5,881 nt of DNA from CAYFZR01 sp046760505 [NCBI: Candidatus Hydrothermarchaeota archaeon] (GTDB lineage Archaea > CAYFZR01): NCBI GenBank assembly GCA_046760505.1, contig JBHIEG010000063.1, positions 1 to 5,881 on the forward strand. The letters run 5' to 3'. The notes under the pieces are model-generated. The model had not been told where the DNA came from and searched no databases. It saw only the letters and a list, made by a program, of their open reading frames with translations. How positions within the stretch are numbered: the stretch's first letter is position 1; every line of letters starts with the position of its first letter. A program made the position numbers and the translations under genes. Below, one piece after another: positions 1-5,881 of the stretch.

Positions 1-1218
1 GAGGAAACAGAGTATTCTGTGCTCCTGGCTCAGGCAAAAAGTAAAATGTCTCTTTCTGGAAAAATAGATTATTTTCAACCCCTCACTCTGATTGAGCTGC
101 AGAAAGGATTCCTGGATGAAAAAACAATTATTGTTGAATATTTTCTCGGAGAACAAAAGTCTTTTCTGATGTCAATAGCAAAGAATGATTACCGGGTTTA
201 TTCTCTGCCACCCGCAGAGAAGATGAATGACCTGGTGGGCTCGTATCTTAAAATGTTATCTTATGATAATGAAAGTGGATTTCAAGCACAAGAAACAGCG
301 AAGCGCTTATACAGGGAACTTTTATTCCCTCTTGAAGAAATTGAGACAAAAACATTCGAAAATCTGGTGATTATTCCTGATGGTATCCTTTACTATCTTC
401 CTTTTGAAACCCTAATCGCTGAGGATGAATTTCTGATTAAAAAATATGCCATTTCCTATGCTCCTTCTTCTTCTTCTCTTGCTGTTTTGACTGAAAGAAG
501 AGCAGAATCAGAGGGGAAGTTTTTGCTTGCTTTCGGCAATCCGGTTTATTCTAGAGATAAAGATGAAAATTCAGGAGAGGCAAATTCTGAAGTAAATTTT
601 CTTCGAGATTTATATTTAAATCAGGGCTTCAGATTTTCACCTCTGCCCTACAGTGAGATTGAAGTTTCTGAAATAGCTAAATATTTTCCCGCTGAAGAAA
701 TAGACGTTTATGTCAGAGAAAGTGCAAAAGAAGAAATTATAAAAAGCTCATCTTTAAAAAAATATAAAATTATCCATTTCGCCTGTCACGGTTTTGTGGA
801 TGAAAAATTCCCATTTCGTTCAGCACTCGTTCTAACTCTGGATGAGGATGATAAAGAAGACGGATTTCTTCAGGCCAGGGAAATAAGCAATCTATGTCTC
901 GAAGCAGACCTGATAGTACTTTCTGCCTGCCAGACTGGTAAAGGGAAGCTGGAGCGTGGAGAGGGAGTGTTGGGTTTACCCCGAATTTTCTTTTACTCTG
1001 GAGCAAAGTCAATTCTTACCTCGCTCTGGGAAATTAACGATAAATCTACTTCTGAATTTATGAATTTTTTCTATAGATTTCTTTCTCAGGGAAAAAGTAA
1101 AGCCCAGGCACTGCGAGAAGCCAAATTAGAAATGCTCAGCACAGAATACAACCATCCTTATTACTGGGCCTCTTTTGTGCTGAACGGAGATTACACTTCA
1201 TCTATTTGTTTTGACTGA
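1..1218 (+). CDS. CHAT-domain protease-like protein, 5' end outside window
   Basis: The reading frame is open from base 1, so the 405 visible residues are the C-terminal part of a longer protein. The GTG at 19 is probably internal, because the first residues align with the middle of the second CHAT protein of this window, just before its CHAT domain. The visible part is almost wholly a CHAT domain (caspase HetF associated with TPRs), a separase/caspase-like cysteine peptidase fold. It shows the family landmarks: a YSLPP strand, an IIPDGILYYLPFE core, HFACHG with the probable catalytic His at nt 787-789, and LSACQTG with the probable catalytic Cys at nt 928-930, 47 residues later. A SLWEIND strand and a YYWASFVLNGD end follow. 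No C-terminal membrane segment is present, unlike the second CHAT protein. TPR repeats are expected upstream but not seen. The 3' end overlaps the anti-sigma gene by 21 bp, tail to tail. The substrate is unknown. Confidence 0.93.
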   Translation, partial: EETEYSVLLAQAKSKMSLSGKIDYFQPLTLIELQKGFLDEKTIIVEYFLGEQKSFLMSIAKNDYRVYSLPPAEKMNDLVGSYLKMLSYDNESGFQAQETAKRLYRELLFPLEEIETKTFENLVIIPDGILYYLPFETLIAEDEFLIKKYAISYAPSSSSLAVLTERRAESEGKFLLAFGNPVYSRDKDENSGEANSEVNFLRDLYLNQGFRFSPLPYSEIEVSEIAKYFPAEEIDVYVRESAKEEIIKSSSLKKYKIIHFACHGFVDEKFPFRSALVLTLDEDDKEDGFLQAREISNLCLEADLIVLSACQTGKGKLERGEGVLGLPRIFFYSGAKSILTSLWEINDKSTSEFMNFFYRFLSQGKSKAQALREAKLEMLSTEYNHPYYWASFVLNGDYTSSICFD

Positions 1219-1977
1219 ATCAAGAATTAAGAAAAAATCCTTTAAGAGAGATTCACTGAGTTTTTGGGTAGAAGAGTAGGCAGCGACACTCCAGAAATAT
1301 TTTTTATTATCTTTCAATCCATTTTTTACCTCGTGAGGAAGTTTTAATCGGTTTCTGGATATTTTTCCGCTTTTCCATATCAAATTTAGTTTTTCATCAT
1401 ATAATTCAAGAATGTAATATTTACAACCTTTTACTTTTTTCCATTTAAAAAGAAGCGAATCAGAATGAATTTTTGCGGGTAGTGGTCCAACCAATTCTAT
1501 CATCTGTTTTTTTTCGCCTCTTAGTTGAGTTTTTTCATCAATGTTTTTGGCACCTGTTCTGAAAAATAATAGAATACTTCCCACTAGGAGAGCCAGAGTA
1601 ACTCCAATTGACACATAATTAAAGGAGAGTTTAAACAGAGAAGGTTTTTGTCTGTTTTTCAATTCACACAGGATATCGTAAATTTTCAACCTCAATGAGG
1701 ATAAATCTTCTGCTTCTTCAGAAGAGTTAAGATCCTCTAGTTCTTTTCTTAATTTAAATCTAAGCGTCTTGAGGATAAAATCAAATTCTTCAAGACAGCA
1801 AGGACAGTTTGTGATATGGTCAATGATTTTTGTCTTCTGACGTTCTGATAGTTTTCCTCTGAAAAAATTCATTATTTTTATAGAAGAAGGACACTTTTTC
1901 CTGTCCGATACTGGTATTTGTTCCACATATTTTCTGTAGATTTTCTTTAAACCAATATTATTTATTCTCATAATCAA
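1198..1977 (-). CDS. Membrane anti-sigma factor with zinc-finger domain and FN3-like ectodomain
   Basis: This is a probable single-pass inner-membrane regulator that binds and silences the sigma factor encoded just upstream. Numbered from the upstream ATG at 1983, it has an N-terminal zinc-binding anti-sigma motif with C31, H56, C60 and C63. The H-x3-C-x2-C core, preceded by a Cys and a short helix, is typical of zf-HC2/ZAS anti-sigma factors. An acidic linker follows, then one membrane helix at about residues 121-141. The C-terminal 100 residues (about 160-258) form a beta-rich module with FKWKKVKG, YYILELYD, LKLPHEV and YFWSVAAY patterns, resembling a fibronectin type III-like fold and probably outside the membrane. 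Three starts are possible: ATG 1983, TTG 1977 and ATG 1971. TTG 1977 was chosen because AAGGAG lies 7 nt upstream; the spacing is 1 nt for ATG 1983 and 13 nt for ATG 1971. The gene overlaps the sigma gene end by about 20 bp, pointing to translational coupling. The family call is strong; the exact start is uncertain. Confidence 0.85.
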   Translation of the reverse strand: MIMRINNIGLKKIYRKYVEQIPVSDRKKCPSSIKIMNFFRGKLSERQKTKIIDHITNCPCCLEEFDFILKTLRFKLRKELEDLNSSEEAEDLSSLRLKIYDILCELKNRQKPSLFKLSFNYVSIGVTLALLVGSILLFFRTGAKNIDEKTQLRGEKKQMIELVGPLPAKIHSDSLLFKWKKVKGCKYYILELYDEKLNLIWKSGKISRNRLKLPHEVKNGLKDNKKYFWSVAAYSSTQKLSESLLKDFFLILDSVKTNR

Positions 1978-2503
1978 TCCCATTCTCCTTCAATATTTTT
2001 TTCAGGTCTGATAATCCTCTGTATAGTAAATTCCTTGTTTTATCTTTACTCCAAGTGAAGCAGGTGGCGATTTCTCCAATTGTCATTCCAAGCAGGAATA
2101 GTTTAACCACTTTACGCCGGCTATCGATGAGTAATTCGACAGCATGGCCAACAATTTCAGCGGCATTGTTTTCCCCATTTTCCTTTTCGCTCGTATAAAA
2201 ATTATACTGTTCTGCTATTTTTTTCTGTTTTTCATGATTTATAGCTGCTTTTTCTCTGTTCACTTTTCGGAGTTTATCAATCACAGATGAATTTACTATC
2301 TTCTTGATATAAGACGTACTGTTCTCAATTTTTTTCTCATTCTCAAGAACTTTCCACAGTTTTATTTTTACCTCCTGCAGGATGTCATCTCTATCCAGAC
2401 CGTACTTCTGGATGCTGTATTTGTTGATTTGAGCTTTGATAAAATTGGAGAATTTATTAAAAAGAGCTTCGAAATCTTTTGTTTTTTTATTTTCCCCGTC
2501 CAT
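1958..2503 (-). CDS. ECF-type RNA polymerase sigma factor
   Basis: This 181-residue protein is a small sigma-70 family factor with only regions 2 and 4, as in ECF factors, and would direct RNA polymerase to a dedicated promoter set. Region 2 covers about residues 10-85. It includes the DDILQEVKIKLWKVL helix (residues 39-53), the core-binding and -10 recognition part, and a SYIKKIVNSSVIDKLRK stretch matching the usual W-x-x-x-I-A-x-N-x-x-I-D-x-x-R pattern. After a polar linker, region 4 (about 121-171) has a helix-turn-helix of the form LLGMTIGEIATCF...SKDKTRNLLYRGLSDLKKIL that would read the -35 element. The frame extends upstream to a GTG at 2575. ATG 2503 was chosen because a strong extended -10 promoter sits just before it and the extra 24 residues are not sigma-like. 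No Shine-Dalgarno site precedes ATG 2503. The gene is followed by, and overlaps, its probable anti-sigma factor. It does not fit a named ECF group that can be recognised by eye. Confidence 0.88.
   Translation of the reverse strand: MDGENKKTKDFEALFNKFSNFIKAQINKYSIQKYGLDRDDILQEVKIKLWKVLENEKKIENSTSYIKKIVNSSVIDKLRKVNREKAAINHEKQKKIAEQYNFYTSEKENGENNAAEIVGHAVELLIDSRRKVVKLFLLGMTIGEIATCFTWSKDKTRNLLYRGLSDLKKILKENGIDYENK
1985..1990 (-). promoter_or_regulatory. Shine-Dalgarno site of the anti-sigma gene
   Basis: AAGGAG on the minus strand lies inside the last codons of the sigma gene. It is 7 nt from TTG 1977, 13 nt from ATG 1971 and only 1 nt from ATG 1983, so it argues against the longest reading. It is the only clear ribosome binding site found at a gene start in the window. 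Confidence 0.6.
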
Positions 2504-2513
2504 TGTTTTTCGA

Positions 2514-2542
2514 ATTATAGCATTCTGGCTATCTGTCAACAA
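2514..2542 (-). promoter_or_regulatory. Extended -10 promoter of the sigma/anti-sigma unit
   Basis: On the minus strand TGCTATAAT (2522-2514) is a perfect extended -10 element. At 17 bp upstream the -35 position reads TTGTTG (2542-2537), a weak match. A perfect TTGACA (2539-2534) is also present but only 14 bp from the -10. Transcription should start about 3-4 nt before ATG 2503, giving a nearly leaderless mRNA. This looks like a housekeeping promoter and lacks an evident ECF-type -35 (GGAAC-like), so autoregulation by the encoded sigma is not visible here. Confidence 0.6.
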
Positions 2543-2612
2543 TAATTTAATGGCGTTTATAATGACGAACAGCACGCTGGTTTTTTCTCATCGGTAGAAA
2601 ACTCTTATTCAC

Positions 2613-2641
2613 TTGACATTCCTTTATCCCTTAACTAACAT
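2613..2641 (+). promoter_or_regulatory. Possible distal promoter of the glycosyltransferase gene
   Basis: TTGACA at 2613-2618 is a perfect sigma-70 -35 hexamer. It is followed after 17 bp by TAACAT at 2636-2641, which matches the -10 consensus at four of six bases. It would give a leader of about 30 nt without a ribosome binding site. It is weaker overall than the proximal candidate, and the two could be alternatives. Confidence 0.35.
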
Positions 2642-2669
2642 TCAAAGCGAATAATTTCTGTGTTATATT
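2641..2669 (+). promoter_or_regulatory. Proximal extended -10 promoter of the glycosyltransferase gene
   Basis: TATATT at 2664-2669 is preceded by TG plus one base (2661-2663), an extended -10. A TTCAAA -35-like hexamer lies at 2641-2646 with a 17-bp spacer. Only 9 bases separate the -10 from ATG 2679, so the start point would fall within about 3 nt of the initiation codon. The layout mirrors that of the divergent sigma promoter. Confidence 0.5.
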
Positions 2670-2678
2670 ATTAATGCC

Positions 2679-4064
2679 ATGTGGGAAGATACGCTGTATG
2701 AGTTTGAACGAAGGTCTCGAGAGAAGGGAAATTTTTTTGATAATTTCTTCATCAGAGAAAAAATAGATACCATTCTCATCTTTCTCATTATTGTTGGAAG
2801 TTCAACAGTAGTGGTGATAGGTTTAAAGCTGCGGATTTTTCATCTCTGGCTGGATTTTCTATCAAGCAGCCATATCCTCAGGTTCTCAGCTTTAGTTTTT
2901 ACTGGCTCCACAGTATTCATCATCGCCGGCATTTTGTTCAGAACATTCCTCTGGATTAAATATCGGCCTTTAAAGCTCAAGCCAGCAGAAAAAATTGACT
3001 GGCCTTACGTTTCGGTAATTATGCCCGCTCTCAATGAAGAAGAGCTTATTGAAAAATCCATCGATTGCGTTTTTGCTTCTAAATACCCAGAAGAAAACCT
3101 TGAACTCATCTGTATCAATGATGGTTCAGCGGATAGAACTCTCTACAGAATGTTGAAGGCCAGGCAGAAGTACGGCCAGAGACTCAGAGTGATTAATTTC
3201 AGGAAGAATGTAGGTAAGAGGAAGGCTCTCTACGCAGGATTTAAGATGGCAAAAGGTGAAATAATTGTCACTTCTGATTCTGACAGTAAAATCGGGAGGA
3301 ATGCAATCCGGAACGTTGTTCTACCGTTGATAAAGGATAGAAATACAGGTGCTGTGGCAGGGAGAGTGGCAGTTCTTAACGAGAAAGAGAATTTTCTTAC
3401 CAGAATGCTTTCCATCCGCTATTCAATCTCTTTTGATTTCGGACGTGCTTACCAGAGTGTCTACGGCACAGTGTTCTGCTGCCCAGGAGCTCTGACGGCT
3501 TACAGGAAATCAGTGTTAATGAAGTTCGCTAAAGATTGGGTAAAACAGAAATTCCTTGATGTGGAGTGTACCTACGGTGAGGACAGATCTCTGACAACAA
3601 ATATTCTCAAGTGCGGATATATGACCAGATATCAGTCAAATGCAGTCGTTTATACCAGAGTTCCTTCAAGGCTTCGACAGGTAAGCAAAATGTATCTCCG
3701 CTGGACACGGAGTTATATACGTGAATCTGTGCTTTTTTCCATGTTCATGTTTTCCCCCTACCGTGAGCAGTATCGTCTGCTGCCTATCTGTGATTTTTTC
3801 TTTCTCAATTTCCTCCATCCGTTTCATTTGTTCGCCATCGCCCTTGTCTTCTATTCGGTTATTTTATATCCTGTTTTGATTGTGCGATATCTGCTCATCA
3901 TTGTCATTATCTCATTCTTCCTTTCTCTCTATTACTTACGAACAAACAGAAGCCTGACTTTTCTCTACGGGATTCCATATGCGGTTTTAACAGCTTTCTG
4001 TCTGTGGTGGATAGTTCCCTATGCTGCCTGTACCCTGAAAAATCAATCCTGGCTCACAAAATAA
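2679..4064 (+). CDS. Membrane glycosyltransferase family 2, hyaluronan synthase/NodC-like
   Basis: This 461-residue integral membrane enzyme probably polymerises a sugar nucleotide (UDP-GlcNAc or similar) into a polysaccharide or oligosaccharide at the inner membrane and may export it. Two N-terminal membrane helices (about 31-49 and 69-87) precede a cytoplasmic GT-A domain that starts at VSVIMPALNEEE. Visible motifs are NDGSAD (D148, D152) for nucleotide binding, the DSD metal site (D200-D202), the GEDR catalytic-base region (E301-D302) and LRWTRSYIRES, which matches the acceptor-site region of NodC and hyaluronan synthases. The usual QxxRW signature reads M338-Y-L-R-W342 here, so the Gln is replaced by Met. 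Hydrophobic helices fill residues from about 365 to 453, and the protein ends NQSWLTK, resembling the W-G/L-T-R/K end of hyaluronan synthases. The start has no Shine-Dalgarno site. The product is unknown; hyaluronan itself is not implied. It is divergent from the sigma gene and converges on the CHAT gene with a 5-bp gap. Confidence 0.9.
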   Translation: MWEDTLYEFERRSREKGNFFDNFFIREKIDTILIFLIIVGSSTVVVIGLKLRIFHLWLDFLSSSHILRFSALVFTGSTVFIIAGILFRTFLWIKYRPLKLKPAEKIDWPYVSVIMPALNEEELIEKSIDCVFASKYPEENLELICINDGSADRTLYRMLKARQKYGQRLRVINFRKNVGKRKALYAGFKMAKGEIIVTSDSDSKIGRNAIRNVVLPLIKDRNTGAVAGRVAVLNEKENFLTRMLSIRYSISFDFGRAYQSVYGTVFCCPGALTAYRKSVLMKFAKDWVKQKFLDVECTYGEDRSLTTNILKCGYMTRYQSNAVVYTRVPSRLRQVSKMYLRWTRSYIRESVLFSMFMFSPYREQYRLLPICDFFFLNFLHPFHLFAIALVFYSVILYPVLIVRYLLIIVIISFFLSLYYLRTNRSLTFLYGIPYAVLTAFCLWWIVPYAACTLKNQSWLTK

Positions 4065-4069
4065 ACAGA

Positions 4070-5881
4070 TTACATTTTCCGGTGGAGGTTTCTGAAGGTT
4101 ATTATTCCTGCTCCGGTGAGGAAGAGAGAGAGGAGAATAAATAATTTTTTGGAAGAAGAAGGGAAAATAATTCTATCTGCCATACCGGTGGCAAGGTATC
4201 CTGCCCAGAAGTAGGGGTGGGAAAGATTTCCGGAAGAGATCATTTCCAGTTTGGCCTTCCTCAGGGCCTCCATGATTGAGAAGGAGTGGCGGAGGTGGGA
4301 GTAGAATCTCTCCATGAGAATGGCGCTTGCCTGGTCGTTTACTGCCCAGAGAGTGATAAGGGCAGAAGAAGAGCCAGCGTAGAAAAAGGCCCTGTTGAGG
4401 CTTTCTATTCCTTCTCCTCTGATGAATTCTCCCAGACCTGTCTGGCAGGCAGAGAGTGTAACCAGGTCGCAGTTAAGGTCGAGGTTGAATATTTCTCTCA
4501 TCTGTAGGAATCCGTCCTCGTTGTCATTATTTTTAAGAGAAAGAACGATGGCAGAACGGGCCGGATTTTTTTCGTCAACCAGAGCGTGGGTGGCAAAGTG
4601 TAATATTTTATATTGAGAGAGAGGGATTTTTTTTATCAGTTCTTCAGATGCATTTTCTCGCCTGTAGATTGACTTTTTTGATTTCTTGAATAGAGAACCG
4701 ATTCTCTCAACTTCCTGGCTGCTGTGCTCCAGCCTGAAAAAATTGAAAGTATTAGAAGAGTAGTAGTCCTGAAAAATGTCCTTCTCGGAGTTTGTTATCT
4801 CATTTACTCCAAAAGAGGGATCACCAAAGGCAATCAGGTCTTTTTTTGGCCTCTGTTTTTTCATTTTTTTATGATTTTTAATCTCTGAGAGGACGGAAAG
4901 GGAAGGAATGTAGGAAACCCTGTAATCCTCTATCAGCCATCTTTTCGGGCTCTGCTGGGTAATGAGCGCTTCAAAAGGGAGAAAGTGAAGAATATCGTCG
5001 GGTGAAATGATAATCTTCCTTATTTTTTTATCCAGGCCAGGAAGGATGAGAGAAGAAAAGAGTTCATATCCTGGTTGAAATTCTGAACATTCCCTGTCAG
5101 TAATCAGGCCCAGGTAGTTTTTGACCTTTTTCTGTATTTCACGCGCAGGAGGAAGACTGAATATTTTTAATTTCTTTCTGGTGATGACAAAGGCATAGGA
5201 ATTTTCTCTACCGAGACAGTATTCAAAAAAGGCAGTGGTACGATCAGCCAGTTTTTTCTGGGCCTCTTTAACAGAAATAATCTGGGGGTACTTGAGGTCA
5301 GCGTAAGCAGGGCTCGAAATTCTTATTTCCCTCTTAACTGATTCAATTTCCTCTTCATGTTTTTTTAGCTGGCTGTAAAGTTCATTCCTTTTTTCTTCTG
5401 TAAGGTCGGGGGATAAAAGCGTTTTGTATATCTTTGAAATTTCCTGCATAAGTTCTTTTTCCCGCTCAATCAGCCTGAGGTCAACCCCAGCTGAAATGTC
5501 GATGTTTGATACCTCAAGACTGTCGAGGAATGAGCGTGCTTTGGCTCTCTCCATGTAGTTGAAAGCCTGGAGGTCGTATTCTTTTCCTGAGTGAGATTGG
5601 TGGAGTCTGGCAAGCAGGTCTATGAGGTTGTGAAAGGCTTCGAGTCGCCTGTCTGTGCCAAAATAGCTTGCCTTCAGTTCTTCGAGCTTAATCTTGGAAC
5701 GGATATCTTCGATGATATTTATCGAGTTTTTATAACTCTCAAGAGCTTTTTCATATTCCTTCTCTTTTCTGTAGGCATTGCCCATTTCAAGGTAGGCTTC
5801 CCAGAGAATCTGCCCTCCTTTTATCTCCAGTCCGAGGTCGATCGATTTCTGGAGGTACTTTATTGAGTCTTCGAGATTTCC
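4070..5881 (-). CDS. TPR-coiled coil-CHAT protease-like protein with C-terminal membrane anchor, 5' end outside window
   Basis: The frame runs open to the window end, so the Met at 5785 is internal and 603 residues are visible (residue 1 = nt 5881-5879). They begin with the last helix of one TPR and a full TPR (about 28-58: AYLEMGNAYRKEKEYEKALESY). Next come the MERAKARSFLDSL helix common in TPR-CHAT proteins (about 110-122) and a charged coiled coil (about 136-187). A CHAT domain follows, with YADLKYP and EYCLGRENSY strands, IISPDDILHFLPFEAL, HFATH with the probable catalytic His at nt 4588-4586, and LSACQTG with the probable catalytic Cys at nt 4447-4445. The His-Cys distance is 47 residues, as in the other CHAT protein. 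After the PYFWAGYLATG end of the domain, residues about 580-596 form one membrane helix with a basic RNLHRKM tail. A separase/caspase-like peptidase role with TPR-based sensing is known for the family; the substrate here is unknown. Whether the protein is cytoplasmic or exported depends on the unseen N-terminus. Confidence 0.94.
   Translation of the reverse strand, partial: GNLEDSIKYLQKSIDLGLEIKGGQILWEAYLEMGNAYRKEKEYEKALESYKNSINIIEDIRSKIKLEELKASYFGTDRRLEAFHNLIDLLARLHQSHSGKEYDLQAFNYMERAKARSFLDSLEVSNIDISAGVDLRLIEREKELMQEISKIYKTLLSPDLTEEKRNELYSQLKKHEEEIESVKREIRISSPAYADLKYPQIISVKEAQKKLADRTTAFFEYCLGRENSYAFVITRKKLKIFSLPPAREIQKKVKNYLGLITDRECSEFQPGYELFSSLILPGLDKKIRKIIISPDDILHFLPFEALITQQSPKRWLIEDYRVSYIPSLSVLSEIKNHKKMKKQRPKKDLIAFGDPSFGVNEITNSEKDIFQDYYSSNTFNFFRLEHSSQEVERIGSLFKKSKKSIYRRENASEELIKKIPLSQYKILHFATHALVDEKNPARSAIVLSLKNNDNEDGFLQMREIFNLDLNCDLVTLSACQTGLGEFIRGEGIESLNRAFFYAGSSSALITLWAVNDQASAILMERFYSHLRHSFSIMEALRKAKLEMISSGNLSHPYFWAGYLATGMADRIIFPSSSKKLFILLSLFLTGAGIITFRNLHRKM

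Follow-up and report, generated by a model that had tools for sequence, protein, structure and literature searches.

Regulated proteolysis opens membrane anti-sigma factors, with DegS acting first on RseA, and in type III-E CRISPR systems the CHAT protease Csx29 proteolyzes the sigma inhibitor Csx30, according to one report (PMC10028731). CHAT domains and sigma control also meet in Myxococcus xanthus, where the DdvS-DdvA system (PDB entries 8rot, 8rw5, and 8rlz) couples an extracytoplasmic function (ECF) sigma factor and its transmembrane anti-sigma factor to a CHAT domain: The titles of 8rot and 8rw5 name DdvA as a transmembrane anti-sigma factor, and its 991-residue chain ends in the CHAT domain, with His and Cys at matching places. 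According to two reports, the ddvS promoter needs DdvS, which turns active once DdvA has been inactivated (PMC4374960), and DdvS controls a defense island in Myxococcus (PMC12288465). CHAT-domain proteins further occur in the gene context of ECF54 sigma factors, which are described as working without an anti-sigma factor (PMC8999054). Here, we analyze a 5,881-nt stretch of DNA assigned to CAYFZR01 sp046760505 (assembly GCA_046760505.1, contig JBHIEG010000063.1, positions 1 to 5,881, forward strand; hereafter “the window”). A first-pass annotation had described it as two CHAT proteins with intact His/Cys pairs flanking a sigma factor, a membrane anti-sigma factor, and a polysaccharide synthase, and open reading frames together with Pfam and NCBIfam scans confirmed that all five genes are present. 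We tentatively read this locus as an envelope-located, CHAT-gated sigma switch that would represent a split version of the DdvA plan.

Like DdvS-DdvA, the window combines an ECF sigma factor and a transmembrane anti-sigma factor with a CHAT domain, but DdvA unites anti-sigma factor and CHAT in a single polypeptide, whereas here they are encoded by separate convergent genes. Because the DdvA chain bears both, it can be viewed as a natural fusion of two neighbors of our locus. The anti-sigma factor studied here additionally ends in an Fn3-like domain, unlike DdvA, and the CHAT proteins are separate, predicted to be exported, and present as two paralogs; that CHAT lies outside and the zinc domain inside the cytoplasm is predicted here from hydrophobic segments, while DdvA is “transmembrane” according to the PDB titles. 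The type III-E arrangement of Csx29, Csx30, and the CASP-sigma factor resembles the window in placing a CHAT protease of the same fold beside a sigma factor and its inhibitor, but it is RNA-guided and involves Cas7-11, whereas the window has CHAT proteins with predicted export, no Cas gene, and an anti-sigma factor of zinc, transmembrane (TM), and Fn3 parts. ECF54 sigma factors differ in having no anti-sigma factor, while an anti-sigma gene is present here. RseA with DegS and RseP as well as RsiW share with our proposal that a membrane anti-sigma factor is opened by proteolysis, but they use other proteases than a CHAT cysteine-protease fold encoded beside its anti-sigma factor. By these defining features, the window module is none of DdvA, type III-E, or ECF54, but it is built on a related plan. 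The choice of type III-E for comparison in the first-pass annotation was apt insofar as CHAT there cuts a sigma inhibitor, yet it was too narrow, since the nearest sigma-linked relatives also include DdvA. A literature search by title or abstract start, partial in its coverage, found no stand-alone module of sigma factor, anti-sigma factor, and CHAT, and we do not claim that the module is unpublished.

The window opens with CHAT1, a CHAT protease-like protein without a C-terminal TM segment (1..1218, forward strand; Pfam CHAT, 2.9e-77), and closes with CHAT2, a TPR-CHAT protein with a C-terminal TM anchor (4070..5881, reverse strand; Pfam CHAT, 4.3e-71). Both frames are open at their 5' end, with the N-terminus beyond the window. 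Between them lie the genes of the anti-sigma factor (1198..1983, reverse strand), the ECF sigma factor (1958..2575, reverse strand), and a processive family 2 glycosyltransferase or polysaccharide synthase of NodC/PgaC-like type (2679..4064, forward strand; Pfam and NCBIfam scans). The CHAT1 and anti-sigma genes are convergent and overlap by 21 bp, while the glycosyltransferase gene is divergent from the sigma gene, convergent with CHAT2, and separates the two. Neither CHAT gene of the window is therefore in an operon with the sigma gene, as CHAT1 is convergent with the anti-sigma gene and the glycosyltransferase gene stands between CHAT2 and sigma.

The evidence that carries our reading is the conserved pairing of CHAT genes with one family of anti-sigma factors. 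We searched 142 genomes of the class to which Candidatus Aminicenantes bacterium JdFR-78 (G001) belongs (hereafter “the class”); this genome encodes the best CHAT2 relative found among named genomes (48% identity in the best segment, query residues 2 to 566), and the window presumably stems from the same group. The anti-sigma profile matched in 138 of these 142 genomes, though the weaker matches often cover the zinc end alone, and CHAT (PF12770) was found in 97. Among 150 CHAT matches listed, at least 58 lie downstream of an anti-sigma gene on the opposite strand (57 of them within 120 bp of the matched stretches), at least 33 lie upstream on the same strand, a single one lies downstream on the same strand, and none lies upstream on the opposite strand. 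For 58 of the 150, no listed anti-sigma gene is found within 6 kb, so that at least 92 are linked in fixed orientations, compared with a chance expectation below 1 in 150 that is a rough estimate from about one listed anti-sigma gene per 3 Mb and not a computed control. The co-occurrence across related genomes to which the first-pass annotation had looked was hence borne out, and because the gene arrangement is conserved across the class, a chance neighborhood is very unlikely. The count of linked CHAT genes is a lower bound, since 6 of 19 regions inspected around CHAT genes lacking a listed anti-sigma gene (L132, L134, L135, L139, L149, and L150) do carry a sigma and an anti-sigma gene; unlinked CHAT genes also exist.

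Closer inspection of individual loci returned the same geometry. In ten chosen genomes, we judged by eye that 20 of 23 CHAT genes have an anti-sigma match no more than about 5 kb away, with all three exceptions in one genome (G124), and these genomes hold 216 sigma matches, so that the pairing with CHAT picks out few of many. A convergent CHAT gene adjoins 43 of the 64 anti-sigma genes that were examined closely, at gaps between -68 and +30 bp in 41 of the 43. Over all examined loci, whose selection by anti-sigma or CHAT matches was not random, a convergent CHAT gene accompanies 52 of 77 anti-sigma genes, and 49 of these also have a sigma gene. A second CHAT gene, when upstream, is on the same strand as sigma. 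In one genome (L095, G125), a very long CHAT protein is encoded downstream of the sigma/anti-sigma pair on the same strand.

Synteny among close relatives can last without function, and the five genes could in principle be unrelated neighbors that hitch-hike neutrally. We consider this hardly credible, because the orientation rule holds class-wide although the linked anti-sigma factors are only 13% to 39% identical to that of the window, and because some Bacteroidota show the convergent triple again. Sigma gene, anti-sigma gene, and convergent CHAT gene also stand together in a genome of the same phylum outside the class list (G077, L040). CHAT was found in 67 of 148 Bacteroidota genomes, and 3 of 40 regions from this phylum (L158, L161, and L172) contain sigma, anti-sigma, and convergent CHAT genes, while a fourth (L164) has the anti-sigma and convergent CHAT genes and a fifth (L168) has all three genes on one strand; a sigma match is present somewhere in 18 of the 40 regions, a figure that comes without a density control. 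The convergent arrangement therefore exists in Bacteroidota but is not the rule there. In one Bacteroidales locus (L017), the gene convergent with CHAT is anti-sigma-like but of a different type that has no zinc motif. In the flanks of 18 cyanobacterial CHAT loci (L002 to L016 and L018 to L020), a Spirochaetes locus (L021), and L022 to L024, our sigma and anti-sigma profiles had no match; these profiles were built from the class and its neighbors and may miss other kinds.

The anti-sigma factor consists of an N-terminal zinc-type domain, a TM helix, and a putatively periplasmic Fn3-like domain, as judged from alignments and an AlphaFold2 model. It carries a motif of the zinc anti-sigma (ZAS) type, H-x3-C-x2-C plus an upstream Cys, with C31 and H56-x3-C60-x2-C63 (1795..1893, reverse strand) assigned by invariance in alignments and a weak match to 8rlz. 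All four residues are invariant in 12 of 12 relatives, and H56, C60, and C63 as well as Trp181 are invariant in 47 of 47 CHAT-linked anti-sigma factors, an alignment of 47 of the 50 short ones (excluding L017, L164, and L172) with the long L098 and L108 outside the 50. No Pfam family scored above its cut-off, TIGR03988 reached only 15.5 of 62.5 bits, and profile searches of the PDB gave weak matches to the DdvA entries 8rlz (E = 0.02) and 8rot (E = 0.75) as well as to Fn3 domains (E of at least 0.06). The AlphaFold2 model (predicted local distance difference test [pLDDT] 82, predicted template modeling score [pTM] 0.46) shows N-terminal helices, a TM helix at residues 123 to 144 that coincides with a hydrophobic stretch (1552..1617, reverse strand), and, at the C-terminus, eight short strands that form a beta sandwich. 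This last domain (residues 158 to 257; 1213..1512, reverse strand) is modeled with pLDDT of 93 to 98 across residues 181 to 250 and lower values at its edges, and it matches Fn3 domains by fold comparison (Foldseek, 1.5e-4; VIA Z about 10). The sigma to anti-sigma gene order supports that the putative anti-sigma factor would bind and inhibit the sigma factor. A scan of the genome contigs collection returned no relatives of the anti-sigma factor.

Other anti-sigma or anti-sigma-like genes came to light. A second, CHAT-free pair of sigma and anti-sigma genes, the latter of the same family, recurs in many genomes of the class (L042 to L071) and has the same conserved Arg in its linker, while the promoter-like motif described below is absent; in two such loci inspected by eye (L038 and L039), the pair adjoins what we take to be a PSP1-type gene. 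One anti-sigma frame of G125 is extended or fused to 653 residues (L139, 2008-3969, reverse strand), and G001 encodes an anti-sigma-like Fn3 protein directly behind an apparent serine/threonine kinase gene, as judged by eye, without an adjacent sigma or CHAT gene (L026).

CHAT1 and CHAT2 share 40% identity across 382 residues, match the PF12770 CHAT model, and both carry the His/Cys dyad. The catalytic His and Cys codons of CHAT1 (787..789 and 928..930, forward strand), 47 residues apart, fall into invariant alignment columns, and those of CHAT2 (His432 at 4586..4588 and Cys479 at 4445..4447, reverse strand) were placed by alignment of the CHAT domain. Two His and the Cys are invariant in 34 of 34 aligned CHAT domains, a set drawn from 67 domains and selected by its His motif. 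Both proteins are putative cysteine peptidases with intact dyads. The identical 47-residue spacing that the first-pass annotation had singled out is real in both proteins, but it carries no weight, since the same distance (46 residues in one case) is found in every relative that matches the simple dyad motif.

Fn3 domains are binding modules, and the CHAT proteins could instead bind the Fn3-like domain as parts of a split DdvA and serve as sensors or co-repressors without proteolysis. The titles of 8rot and 8rw5, by which DdvA joins a CHAT domain to a transmembrane anti-sigma factor, fit this possibility, whereas the retention of the His/Cys dyad in nearly all members inspected is not what we would expect of a pure scaffold, which should lose it. 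The dyad argument is weakened in turn by an alignment in which DdvA also seems to retain His and Cys, and on balance we regard a purely non-proteolytic role as unlikely.

The location of the CHAT proteins was judged from relatives with complete N-termini. Using a simple hydropathy test on stop-to-stop frames, which is not a signal-peptide predictor and which left out CHAT1 of six loci outside the class, we found that the N-terminus is strongly hydrophobic over a segment in 29 of 34 CHAT1 and 10 of 11 CHAT2 proteins of full length, compared with 1 of 68 sigma factors. A TM-like C-terminal tail was present in 22 of 24 CHAT2 but 2 of 46 CHAT1 proteins, and in the window the corresponding hydrophobic tail of CHAT2 lies at 4094..4150 (reverse strand). 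In L072, a syntenic ortholog of the window CHAT1, a signal-like segment is encoded 5' of the first ATG, GTG, or TTG codon. Both CHAT proteins should therefore be exported, with CHAT2 predicted to be tail-anchored and CHAT1 soluble. Because of this predicted export, they should meet the periplasmic Fn3 domain of the anti-sigma factor and not its cytoplasmic zinc domain, and the module would follow the logic of a protease in the envelope that confronts its partner on the periplasmic side instead of the cytoplasmic logic of Csx29.

This bears directly on a literal Csx29-like model in which a cytoplasmic CHAT protein cuts a cytoplasmic anti-sigma factor and the sigma factor drives the glycosyltransferase. 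There is kinship in fold and, weakly, in sequence: The AlphaFold2 model of CHAT1 (pLDDT 89, pTM 0.91) matches Csx29 (Foldseek, 5.5e-17) as well as separases, gingipain, and DdvA (1.6e-12), with VIA Z of 27.5 for separase, 27.4 for the Craspase TPR-CHAT protein, and 21.2 for DdvA. The Csx29 family NF041237 of NCBIfam, however, has a cut-off of 300 bits that CHAT1 misses by far at 36.3 bits, and CHAT2 is not listed up to E = 1. Among the five window genes, this weak Csx29 match is the only one to a Cas family in Pfam and NCBIfam scans. Together with the predicted export and with the lack of any promoter-like motif seen before glycosyltransferase genes (see below), these results make the literal model very doubtful. 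What stands of the proposal that the window is a stand-alone relative of Csx29 logic is the shared fold and the sigma factor and inhibitor next door, whereas its cytoplasmic setting does not agree with the predicted export. PADLOC returned only weak matches in the window, the best being BovA for CHAT1 at 25.5 bits, and Rfam gave nothing above gathering score.

A quick tree of 121 CHAT domains, from which some short fragments and eight CHAT proteins that lack the simple His motif were excluded, placed the convergent and upstream CHAT proteins of the class in largely separate groups. One group of 33 (support 95) contains all 24 upstream proteins, including the window CHAT2, along with 7 unassigned and 2 convergent ones; the other (support 88, below the starred level) contains 31 convergent and 5 unassigned proteins and includes the window CHAT1.

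The sigma factor itself was recognized by Sigma70_r2 (PF04542, 27 bits versus a cut-off of 24) and TIGR02937 (46.2 versus 42.9 bits); region 4 (PF08281) stays below its cut-off at 14.3 versus 25.7 bits, though the TIGR02937 match spans residues 34 to 195. Its true start is probably near 2503, where aligned relatives begin. A search for this sigma factor in plasmids gave no match. In four loci (L073, L078, L083, and L084), a gene on the opposite strand adjoining sigma encodes an AAA protein that by eye resembles a sigma-54 activator (ILGETGTGKD-type motif), and L101 has a similarly placed gene.

A promoter-like motif recurs in these loci. A blind search for spaced word pairs 5' of 44 sigma genes, leaving out five near-copies, returned GAGAA-N19-TCTA in 15 of them, compared with no more than nine for the best pair in eight shuffles. 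For refined counts, we used 40 loci after excluding 12 of the 52 linked ones (near-copies, outside the class, or without sigma), and the patterns were derived from the same loci in which they were counted, which are thus not an independent set. In this way, TGAGAA-N17/18-(C/A)TCTA was found 5' of sigma in 16 of 39 loci, and TGAGAA-N16-18-CGTC precedes CHAT1 in 13 of 34 loci and sits at the sigma start in 2 of 39 (one being the window) and within the sigma gene in 20 of 39 (21 of 39 when L112 is added). Elsewhere in the same loci, the CGTC form occurs at 0.012 (9 matches) and the TCTA form at 0.004 (3 matches) per kb-strand, and none of the 29 sigma loci of the CHAT-free group has the motif. 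In the window, TGAGAA-N17-CGTC lies upstream of the sigma gene (2564..2590, reverse strand) and again inside the sigma coding sequence, where it points at the anti-sigma gene (2313..2339, reverse strand). The intragenic site is constrained at the DNA level: Of 23 Glu codons at the aligned position, 21 are GAG, whereas the mean share of GAG in the rest of the motif-bearing genes is 26%. At a second place, 28 of 32 codons for Ser, Ala, Thr, or Pro have G as their third base versus a mean of 17% elsewhere, with sequences counted as independent and their kinship ignored, so that GAG and NCG codons are retained there although the residues differ. We infer that these sites are probably promoters of this very sigma factor, which would close the circuit.

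The motif 5' of CHAT1 also feeds the main rival of a CHAT-gated switch, namely that the CHAT proteins are mere outputs: The sigma factor would turn on CHAT1 and perhaps also the polysaccharide synthase, the proteases would act on other envelope proteins, and the linkage would reflect co-regulation. The location of CHAT1 and the anti-sigma gene in separate, convergent transcription units and the conservation of the glycosyltransferase gene in the cluster are in line with it. Autoregulation is common for input proteases, though, the tail-to-tail adjacency to the anti-sigma gene persists in loci where no CHAT2 or glycosyltransferase gene was seen, and the anti-sigma factor DdvA includes a CHAT domain, so that we view an outputs-only role as rather unlikely despite its being the strongest competitor. 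Of the 51 other linked loci, 12 encode orthologs of the glycosyltransferase (46% to 64% identity), one of which is cut. In 10 of 21 other loci with CHAT1, sigma, and CHAT2, the glycosyltransferase gene stands between sigma and CHAT2 and opposite to sigma as in the window, and in 7 of the remaining ones CHAT2 and sigma are just 79 to 137 bp apart. The glycosyltransferase, suggested as an output by the first-pass annotation, is hence linked to the module, but no motif site was seen in front of glycosyltransferase genes.

Distant targets of the sigma factor were sought with TGAGAAA-N15-17-CGTC in six genomes that had been picked for having the cluster. This yielded 57 matches versus 27 for a reversed control, or 47 versus 27 after subtraction of ten known cluster sites, with no excess in G152 and G144, and 20 regions around chosen matches were inspected. 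In two related genomes, an ABC exporter gene and the gene of a 6-bladed propeller are separated by TGAGAAA-CGTC sites that stand back to back (L222 around 3055-3061 and L223 around 2814-2820). The exporter, scanned in L222, has its permease part fused to the ATPase, and in L223, which was scanned for the propeller, a 94-residue frame with a hydrophobic start, several Cys, and no family match lies between site and propeller. This cassette of exporter, small peptide, and propeller is a lead for a distant sigma target. Candidates inside genes (L224, L225, L226, L232, and L241) or formed by gene-start codons (L231, L237, and L240) were set aside. In two related genomes, an identical 27-base motif stretch lies 56 to 60 bp 5' of an apparent cysteinyl-tRNA synthetase gene, as judged by eye (L227, 2112, reverse strand; L228, 2415, forward strand).

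Calculation established the gene set with its fixed orientation and conservation, the grouping of the paralogs, their intact dyads and predicted topology, and the common motif, whereas the motif’s service as the sigma factor’s promoter, CHAT activity, the anti-sigma factor as substrate, and the cue belong to our interpretation. Under the CHAT-gated switch that we tentatively favor, a single-pass anti-sigma factor, with its zinc domain in the cytoplasm and its Fn3-like domain in the periplasm, would tether the sigma factor to the membrane. Soluble exported CHAT1 and exported, C-terminally anchored CHAT2 would use their TPR repeats to detect a cue in the envelope and, like a site-1 protease, cut the anti-sigma factor in its periplasmic or juxtamembrane part at the outer face of the inner membrane, so that further trimming could free the sigma factor. 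The freed sigma factor may then transcribe its own gene, CHAT1, and, from the promoter-like site within its gene, the anti-sigma gene, and it may also drive distant targets such as the exporter cassette.

A number of results weigh against this reading. CHAT1 is not co-transcribed with the sigma and anti-sigma genes and, given the motif in front of it, could pass for a target just as well as for an input. No motif match precedes CHAT1 in 21 of 34 loci, neither form precedes sigma in 21 of 39, and the motif is absent 5' of CHAT2 (0 of 8). The simple dyad motif is unmatched in 6 of 43 CHAT1 proteins. While 138 genomes of the class match the anti-sigma profile, 45 of 142 have no CHAT match, and 21 of the 64 closely examined anti-sigma genes have no convergent CHAT gene, part of them belonging to the CHAT-free group. 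In the other 13 of the 19 regions around CHAT genes lacking a listed anti-sigma gene, some on short contigs, there is no sigma/anti-sigma pair, and in L001 the anti-sigma gene (11850-12506, reverse strand) converges on a TPR-CHAT gene without a sigma gene at its side. The juxtamembrane linker of the anti-sigma factor contains a conserved Arg155 (1519..1521, reverse strand), which we ruled out as a CHAT cleavage site as it is not CHAT-specific: It is present in 95% of 41 CHAT-linked versus 98% of 59 other anti-sigma factors, and this conclusion is independent of the at least three linked members among the 59 (L025, L027, and L029, which stayed in that set because duplicate sequences were assigned to the first locus).

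For most bacterial CHAT proteins, we are aware of no established substrate. The conserved pairing with one anti-sigma family, the orientation rule, and the common motif provide a testable substrate candidate for many of them, and the promoter-like site within the sigma gene is a further oddity that can be checked. More broadly, and with greater reserve, it is possible that the locus represents a self-contained, caspase-like envelope switch of at least two phyla in which exported CHAT proteins release an ECF sigma factor by cutting a zinc/TM/Fn3 anti-sigma factor, in which one motif in three places (before the sigma gene, before CHAT1, and within the sigma coding sequence to raise the anti-sigma factor) closes the loop, and of which DdvA would be the fused and type III-E the captured cytoplasmic form. 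If true, this would make the proteases of type III-E CRISPR systems and DdvA part of a wider use of CHAT proteins in sigma control, and a caspase-fold protease would join those that activate envelope responses by site-1 cleavage.

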